A stretch of 64,000 nucleotides of DNA from positions 62,001 to 126,000 of the forward strand of contig JACZTO010000002.1 of assembly GCA_022573655.1 (NCBI GenBank), given 5' to 3'. Source of the stretch: Pseudomonadota bacterium (GTDB lineage Bacteria > Pseudomonadota > Gammaproteobacteria > Steroidobacterales > Woeseiaceae). Every line of letters starts with the position of its first letter. Position 1 is the first letter of the stretch. The notes beneath the pieces were generated by a model, which worked only from the letters and a program-made list of their open reading frames with translations, did not search any database and had not been told where the DNA came from. Below, one piece after another: positions 2,084-55,535 of this stretch. Made by a program: the position numbers and the translations under genes.

Positions 2084-3097
2084 TCAAGCCGCTGACGGCA
2101 CGTCAAGCGTATCCAACGACCATCGTGCATGGGCCCTGATCTCACCTGCGTCGCCAGCTTCCGCTAGTCGCTGCGCTCCAGCGACGGCGATCATCGCGCC
2201 ATTGTCCGTACAAAACTCGAGTCGAGGGTAATAAACCTTGCCATCAAATCGCGCGGCGAGTTCTGTGCGCAGCAATTGGTTCGCACCGACGCCCCCGGCG
2301 ACGACTATGCGTTCAAGCTTCTGCTCCTGCGCGGCTCGAATCGCCTTGCCAACCAGAGTGTCCACGGCAGCGCGTTGAAACGACGCGGCGAGGTCCGCAC
2401 GGCGGGATTCAATATCTCCAGCCGCCTCGACTTTCTTTACCTCAAGCATGACGGCGGTCTTCAGACCGCTAAAACTGAAATCCAGACCCGGCTTGTTCAG
2501 CATTGGGCGCGGAAACGCATACGCCTGATCGTCGCCAGTCTCGGCCAGGGCAGCCAAAGCAGGCCCGCCGGGATAGCCAAGACCCAAAAGCTTGGCCGTC
2601 TTGTCGAACGCTTCGCCGACCGCGTCATCCAGCGTTGTGCCGAGCAAGTTGTAGTCACCGAGGGCTGCAACGGCGATGAGCATCGTATGACCGCCAGACA
2701 CCAGGAGCGCGAGAAAAGGATATTCGGGCGGCTCATCCTCGAGCATCGGGGCCAGCAGATGACCCTCCATGTGGTGAATCGGGATGACCGGGCAGTTCCA
2801 GGCCAGCCCCAAGCCATTTGCCATGCCGCTTCCGACCATGAGGGCGCCAACAAGTCCCGGCCCGGCCGTATACGCTATCGCGTCGGGTTTCTGCAGCCCG
2901 GTGTCATTCAGTATCTGCTGAATAAGGGGCAGGAGCATGCGAATATGGTCCCTGGAGGCGATTTCCGGTACCACACCGCCATAGACCGCATGCAGGTCGA
3001 CCTGGCTGTGCAAACGATGCGCAATAAGGCCCCGATCAGTGCAATACAGCGCCACACCGGTCTCGTCACAGCTGGTTTCGATGCCGAGAATGATCAT
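2084..3097 (-). CDS. tsaD: tRNA N6-adenosine threonylcarbamoyltransferase TsaD
   Basis: [18 protein letters not shown]...[12 protein letters not shown]...SGGHTML; divergent from rpsU as in many gammaproteobacteria. Confidence 0.96.
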
Positions 3098-7761: not shown

Positions 7762-8072
7762 GGGCCTGTAGCTCAGTTGGTTAGAGCAGGGGACTCATCA
7801 CAAATGGTGCGTTTGTGCCGAAAGGCACAAAATGAACGGGATGAATTCAGGGAAACCTTAGCAGTTCGGCTGATGGCAATCCTGAGCCAAGCCGCGAGTA
7901 CACTCGCGGAAGGTGCAGAGACTACCTGAGGACTTCAGTGTCCTTGATTACAGGCTAGAGCGTCCCGCCCCTAACAATTCGGTTGAGGGTGATGAGATAG
8001 TCCGCTCCATTCAGAAACGGATGGGTAAAGTGAATCCCTTGGTCCCAGGTTCGAGTCCTGGCGGGCCCACCA
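7762..8072 (+). tRNA. tRNA-Ile(CAU) (k2C/TilS-type; may be auto-annotated as tRNA-Met), interrupted by a group I intron; exons 7762-7798 and 8033-8072, CCA encoded
   Basis: Joined exons GGGCCTGTAGCTCAGTTGGTTAGAGCAGGGGACTCAT|AATCCCTTGGTCCCAGGTTCGAGTCCTGGCGGGCCCACCA fold as a 77-nt tRNA; acceptor stem GGGCCUG/CGGGCCC, anticodon stem GGGGA/UCCCU, loop CUCAUAA. Confidence 0.93.
7799..8032 (+). ncRNA. group I (IC3-like) self-splicing intron in tRNA-Ile(CAU)
   Basis: Follows exon ...CAU and ends in G (omega-G); P2 hairpin TTTGTGCC-GAAA-GGCACAAA (7812-7831); P element AATTCAGGGAAACC; Q element GGCAATCCTGAGCCAA; R/P7 GGTGCAGAGACTA; S/P7' GAGATAGTCC; P3 CGGGA/TCCCG; P8 CCCCTAAC/GTTGAGGG; IGS GTG at 7807-7809. 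Confidence 0.93.
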
Positions 8073-55246: not shown

Positions 55247-55535
55247 AATAACAAAACGCCCCGGGCGCATTAGCTGCACCCGGGGCGAGAATTCTTCGCG
55301 GTACCACCCGGTTTCACGGCCTCACCTTAAAGATGATTCCGCCTCGTGGACCGTTACCTGTGACAACGTATCCGTCGCTCGTCTCGTGAGCCAGTCGGCC
55401 TGCCCTACTTATCGCGAATGTTCGGGTAGCGACTCCGGGGTGATATTCGGCAGTTTCGGGCCCGGAGCTCTCACCGTCCTCCGGTCGCTGGTGCCTGAAC
55501 GAGCTGCCTGTTTGTCCCCTTCAGCGTCTTGCGGG
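55247..55535 (-). promoter_or_regulatory. T-box riboswitch leader of ileS (specifier AUC)
   Basis: Minus strand: ...CCGAATATCACCCCGGAGTCGC... (specifier ATC at 55442-55444 in conserved NNN-ACC-x-YGGAGTYGC context) ...GTGAAACCGGGTGGTACCGCGAAGAATTCTCGCCCCGGG...; T-box at 55297-55314. Confidence 0.92.
55250..55287 (-). terminator. intrinsic terminator of the ileS T-box
   Basis: Minus strand CGCCCCGGGTGC-AGCTAAT-GCGCCCGGGGCG (12-bp stem) then TTTTGTT; overlaps the antiterminator 3' strand. Confidence 0.88.

Follow-up and report, generated by a model that had tools for sequence, protein, structure and literature searches.

Known T-box leaders and the Woeseiaceae locus

The class I T-boxes found upstream of ileS in Firmicutes and Chloroflexota combine a Stem I bearing an isoleucine specifier, an antiterminator with a UGGU bulge and an overlapping terminator, all located just upstream of the synthetase gene. 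The ileS T-boxes of Actinobacteria belong to class II; they are isoleucine-specific and also lie upstream of ileS (PMC7583486), have a truncated Stem I (PMC7778990) and act on translation. In addition, leuA T-boxes have been described in Geobacter and Pelobacter, two Deltaproteobacteria (PMC2494555), and a hisS leader resembling Firmicute T-boxes was noted in isolated Gammaproteobacteria in 2010, with transfer of the attenuator raised as a possibility (PMC2965389). A recent survey described T-boxes as restricted to Bacillota and reported that ~10% of the riboswitches in Pseudomonadota use terminators, naming a fast RNA polymerase as a possible reason for this small share (PMC12452182).

Here we describe an ileS leader on the minus strand of the window, the whole stretch of 64,000 nucleotides that was analysed, from a gammaproteobacterium of the family Woeseiaceae. 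A preliminary description had proposed an isoleucine-specific T-box controlling ileS in a gammaproteobacterium, and the sequence comparisons reported here support that proposal. The leader possesses all of the class I features listed above; it differs from the Firmicutes and Chloroflexota leaders in the phylum of its host, in its stabler terminator and in the scores of the T-boxes, most of which lie under the Rfam cut-off. It resembles the actinobacterial leaders in its specificity and its position upstream of ileS, whereas its Stem I is of full length, a terminator and a U-tract are present and the GGAGG is free. The Geobacter and Pelobacter leaders are comparable in that they come from bacteria then called Proteobacteria, although they belong to another class, which is now a separate phylum in GTDB, precede a biosynthetic gene rather than a synthetase gene and were described with no gene swap. 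The hisS case is single and unproven, whereas the Woeseiaceae ileS element is family-wide and has the full anatomy. The papers searched contained no earlier description of a gammaproteobacterial family in which a T-box upstream of an aminoacyl-tRNA synthetase gene has become fixed. To judge from its sequence, the mechanism would be canonical, and its host and history would be new.

Distribution of the T-box

The T-box was detected in 62 of the 73 sampled genomes of the host genus and in 27 of 34 genomes from 11 other Woeseiaceae genera, giving a family total of 89 of 107 genomes (~83%) in 12 genera, with one T-box per genome. Other families of the order yielded a T-box in 1 of 289 genomes. Among 369 genomes sampled from the class, two carried a T-box, both members of the host's own genus, and none was found in the rest of this sample outside that genus. 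In the phylum sample, the host genome was accompanied only by a 26-bit match in G955, which we treated as a chance match rather than a genuine T-box. The preliminary description had called an aminoacyl-tRNA synthetase T-box unexpected in a gammaproteobacterial genome, and the class sample, otherwise without one, agrees. The alternative that it had allowed for, a host outside Proteobacteria in which such T-boxes are routine, does not apply, the host being a member of Woeseiaceae within Gammaproteobacteria. The T-box together with ileS2, the gene encoding a type 2 isoleucyl-tRNA synthetase, is a family-wide trait that extends beyond a single genome.

T-boxes also occur at a few other gammaproteobacterial loci of the same ileS2 clade (L026, L027 and L032). 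At L032, from Arenicellales, a T-box, a glutathione-S-transferase-like ORF (read by eye) and ileS2 follow one another from ~2130-3000, which suggests a T-box-controlled two-gene operon. IleS2-type matches were obtained in 14 of the 368 other class genomes, and the T-box motif was absent upstream of the four such loci inspected.

Structure of the ileS2 leader

The covariance search with the Rfam T-box model (RF00230), which the preliminary description had recommended, returned a match over the full length of the model (1-219) at 55533-55278 of the minus strand, with 75.2 bits and E=1.4e-16. This was the sole T-box match in the host genome (2.27 Mb, 80% complete). The Rfam gathering score for this model is 93, and a default Rfam scan therefore passes over the T-box in the window. 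The T-boxes of relatives score up to 113-116 bits, the cut-off is passed in 16 of 90 genomes and the majority of these T-boxes score under it; that so many do so suggests that other T-boxes have been overlooked.

In the alignment to the model, Stem I, with its specifier loop and distal loop, occupies 55432-55527. The specifier ATC lies in the 3' context of Stem I in which it had first been noticed, at 55444-55442 within GAATATCACCCCGGAGTC; as AUC it encodes isoleucine and pairs with the anticodon GAU. The T-box sequence AACCGGGTGGTACCGCG, likewise reported before, is present on the minus strand of the leader, and with the UGGN bulge in the antiterminator it reads GGGUGGUACCGCG. The antiterminator (55311-55280, -10.4 kcal/mol) is laid out as CCGGG-UGGUACC-GCGA...UCGC-CCCGG, with the bulge UGGUACC at 55306-55300, and the UGGU of this bulge is complementary to the 3' ACCA of tRNA. 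An intrinsic terminator hairpin of -29.6 kcal/mol is formed by the arms CGCCCCGGGUGCA...UGCGCCCGGGGCG (55287-55257), followed by the U-tract UUUUGUU (55256-55250); the GC-rich hairpin and the TTTTGTT behind it had been recognized earlier, except that the stem contains 13 pairs rather than 12. The U-tract is interrupted in the window and poor in some relatives. The segment CGCCCCGG is common to the 5' strand of the terminator and the 3' strand of the antiterminator, and because both hairpins need it, they are mutually exclusive. The Shine-Dalgarno sequence GGAGG (55246-55242) and the TTG start (55234) lie on the minus strand as previously read, and because GGAGG falls in neither hairpin, control should act at transcription. 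The terminator-type attenuation architecture that had been proposed is borne out by this exclusive pairing and by covariation in the terminator. Taken alone, the minimum free energy fold of the entire leader was not informative (z=-1.2 relative to shuffles).

A strong terminator ahead of ileS would also fit a ribosome-mediated attenuator, in which an Ile-codon-rich leader peptide balances the terminator and antiterminator, as is typical of gammaproteobacterial genes for branched-chain amino acids. However, a search of the leader for such a peptide found no ORF with more than one Ile codon, and it is T-box features that are conserved. We consider an attenuator of this kind highly improbable and retain the T-box reading.

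The leader is preceded by a putative promoter at 55565-55537 of the minus strand, composed of a -35 element TTGTGT (55565-55560), a 17-nt spacer and a -10 element TACTTT (55542-55537). It had been proposed only as a possibility, and its conservation now speaks for it, the pattern TTGT-N-TANTTT being found at fixed spacing in 21 of 24 family leaders vs. 0.7% in shuffles. The pattern ends 3-4 nt ahead of the start of the T-box model. At two loci, L005 (G027) and L007 (G019), a palindrome-like stretch (GGGGTCTGACCCC and GGGGTATCGCCCC, respectively) takes the place of the -35 region, and a TAGTGT-like -10 element is retained beside it upstream of Stem I.

Conservation and covariation of the leader

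The specifier reads AUC in every one of 22 aligned leaders, whereas all four nucleotides (A, C, G, T) occur at the position preceding it; the T-box sequence is invariant in the family leaders as well. Across Stem I and the antiterminator, 97.2% of the cells are paired in these 22 leaders and 11 pairs show changes on both sides, 10 of them in Stem I alone, while the antiterminator pairs are intact in 100% of the cells. None of 500 shuffles reached the values of Stem I and the antiterminator, and every slid control was far lower. Terminators were found at the same place in most family leaders; in the alignment of 22 relatives, 94.1% of the terminator cells are paired and 5 pairs show changes on both sides. 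From the full-length RF00230 match and these alignment statistics, we take the T-box not to be a product of chance.

The ileS2 gene and its enzyme

The gene downstream of the leader, at 55234-52097 of the minus strand, encodes a type 2 isoleucyl-tRNA synthetase of 1045 amino acids (TIGR00392, 940.8 bits). The best PDB matches of this protein are 8c8u-8c9d, with 919-934 bits, which appear to be the IleRS2 set of PMC10485003; IleRS1 structures score ~350-375 bits. In its translation, residues 56-59 (55069-55058) read GIHH where class I enzymes have the HIGH motif, and GIHH is also present in every family member in which the motif region was read. The window enzyme therefore combines an IleRS2-type sequence with GXHH replacing HXGH, like the IleRS2 with G/AXHH for which mupirocin hyper-resistance was found in the tested enzymes (PMC10485003). 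By analogy, it would be expected to be hyper-resistant to mupirocin, with a Ki in the mM range.

The ileS2 gene is the only isoleucyl-tRNA synthetase gene found in the host genome. Throughout the genomes of the genus, only ileS2 was detected, with no match in the IleS1 score range, and 21 of 23 relatives from other families of the order had matches in that range. The native ileS1 was probably displaced by a horizontally acquired ileS2.

An ORF for an MBOAT/DltB-like acyltransferase (52063-50642, minus strand) starts 34 nt past ileS2 and may be co-transcribed with it. A conserved ileS2-MBOAT operon under joint control was considered and rejected, this neighbour being common to only a few relatives.

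Origin of ileS2 and its T-box

The nearest relatives outside the gammaproteobacterial clade are Chloroflexota IleS2 proteins, with ~50% identity. In the phylogenetic tree, the gammaproteobacterial IleS2 proteins formed one clade (SH-aLRT 100) that joined with Chloroflexota (96) and adjoined Ktedonobacter and a Chloroflexaceae sequence (97). Chloroflexota as a single clade was not rejected (AU p=0.45), a result under which strict nesting of the family IleS2 inside Chloroflexota is not shown; because the paraphyly of Chloroflexota is not significant, the donor phylum rests on sisterhood. Most Chloroflexota ileS2 relatives possess a T-box 65-220 nt upstream of the gene, with a terminator and the same overall layout. 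IleRS1 is the general proteobacterial type, and ileS2 has already been inferred to have moved horizontally on repeated occasions, with alphaproteobacteria among the recipients (PMC4861432). T-boxes are not mentioned in that paper or in PMC10485003. The tree, the T-boxes of the Chloroflexota relatives and the rule of ileS1 in the class together make transfer of the gene plus its T-box the simplest reading: on the evidence of these sequences, the two most likely moved together into a gammaproteobacterial ancestor, and the direction of transfer would have been from a Chloroflexota-like donor.

T-boxes are modular, and the T-box could have been gained separately from ileS2 or have originated independently, as none is present at L028, L029, L072 and L197, gammaproteobacterial loci whose ileS2 is of the same or a wider type. 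This scenario seems improbable to us, given the shared position and layout of the Chloroflexota T-boxes, and where members of the same clade have no T-box, we prefer to interpret this as loss. The surprising host is largely explained by joint gene transfer rather than by an independent origin of the T-box.

Changes in the leaders after the probable transfer

The terminators of most GC-rich members have energies of about -24 to -33 kcal/mol vs. -14 to -21 kcal/mol in Chloroflexota; because the AT-rich G670 has a value of -19 kcal/mol, the stronger terminators are at least partly an effect of G+C content. A palindrome of the type GGTGNCNGTNACC is located in the terminator loop of L113 (G002), L004/L112 (G015), L008/L124 (G018) and L110 (G028), and other inserts are present in the terminators of L026 and L033. 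G028 has a second copy of the palindrome upstream of the promoter. A further 280 kb of sequence from G028 and G015 contained no palindrome of this type, and it is therefore not simply abundant in these two genomes.

In several leaders the T-box has been lost or damaged. L119 (G008) and L125 (G013) have no T-box, and L129 (G032) has lost most of Stem I; in all three, promoter-like sequence and ileS2 are kept. At L110 (G028; ~1200-1500), the entire segment that would separate Stem I from the terminator, antiterminator included, is gone, and the promoter pattern is retained as in G008, G013 and G032. The junction in G028 lies at CCCCGGAG, which also occurs in Stem I and at the palindrome inserts of relatives, so that the segment was probably lost by deletion between direct repeats. 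These losses, together with the palindromic inserts in several terminators, would be expected if the T-box were a relic that hitch-hiked with ileS2 and no longer works as a switch in the gammaproteobacterial host. However, its retention in ~83% of the sampled family genomes over 12 genera, the compensatory changes that Stem I and the terminator show, the invariance of the specifier and T-box sequence, and the intactness of all parts in the window make such a relic quite improbable. We continue to regard the leader as probably a working switch. Whether it was re-tuned for the proteobacterial RNA polymerase, as the stronger terminator, the conserved local promoter and the repeated loop palindromes may indicate, is to us nearly an even question, leaning slightly towards doubt; on the same tentative reading, a complete switch would have crossed phyla attached to a hyper-resistant synthetase and come to control the sole copy of an essential gene in an abundant family.

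Proposed mechanism

The leader very probably represents a class I, transcriptional T-box that senses uncharged tRNA-Ile and was most likely co-transferred with ileS2, with loss of the native ileS1. Transcription would start near 55530, a few nucleotides ahead of Stem I. When charged tRNA-Ile is plentiful, the nascent leader would form the -29.6 kcal/mol terminator, and transcription would stop before ileS. Because the elements are those of a standard class I T-box, uncharged tRNA-Ile(GAU) is expected to shift the balance towards the antiterminator: its anticodon would pair with the AUC and its free 3' ACCA with the UGGU bulge. The antiterminator held by the tRNA would then occupy CGCCCCGG, block the terminator and allow ileS2 to be transcribed. 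The enzyme, the sole isoleucyl-tRNA synthetase detected in the genome, would thereby be induced by feedback. We infer binding of the tRNA, termination and antitermination at this leader from its elements.

Searches of the genomes examined with a pattern, the E. coli sequence and RF00005 did not find tRNA-Ile(GAU), the matches being tRNA-CAU, tRNA-Val and others. Its usual neighbour in the rRNA spacer, tRNA-Ala(UGC), was likewise missing among the genomes inspected, and the tRNAs of the rRNA operons are apparently absent or masked.

Elsewhere in the window, at 7762-8072 of the plus strand, a group I intron of 234 nt (RF00028, 76 bits) interrupts a tRNA with the anticodon CAU that is best read as tRNA-Ile2. 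Within the same family, a counterpart of this tRNA that has no intron (L159, G479) is 95% identical to it.

Implications

The order to which Woeseiaceae belong accounts for 1-22% of the 16S sequences of marine sediments (PMC7082342). The retention of a terminator-type T-box across this family provides a natural test of the idea that a fast polymerase limits the use of terminators in Pseudomonadota, and the leaders that have lost the T-box, most of Stem I or the antiterminator are ready-made natural comparisons. The locus is also a clear example in which a regulatory RNA would have crossed phyla with its gene, which probably replaced the native gene of the family.
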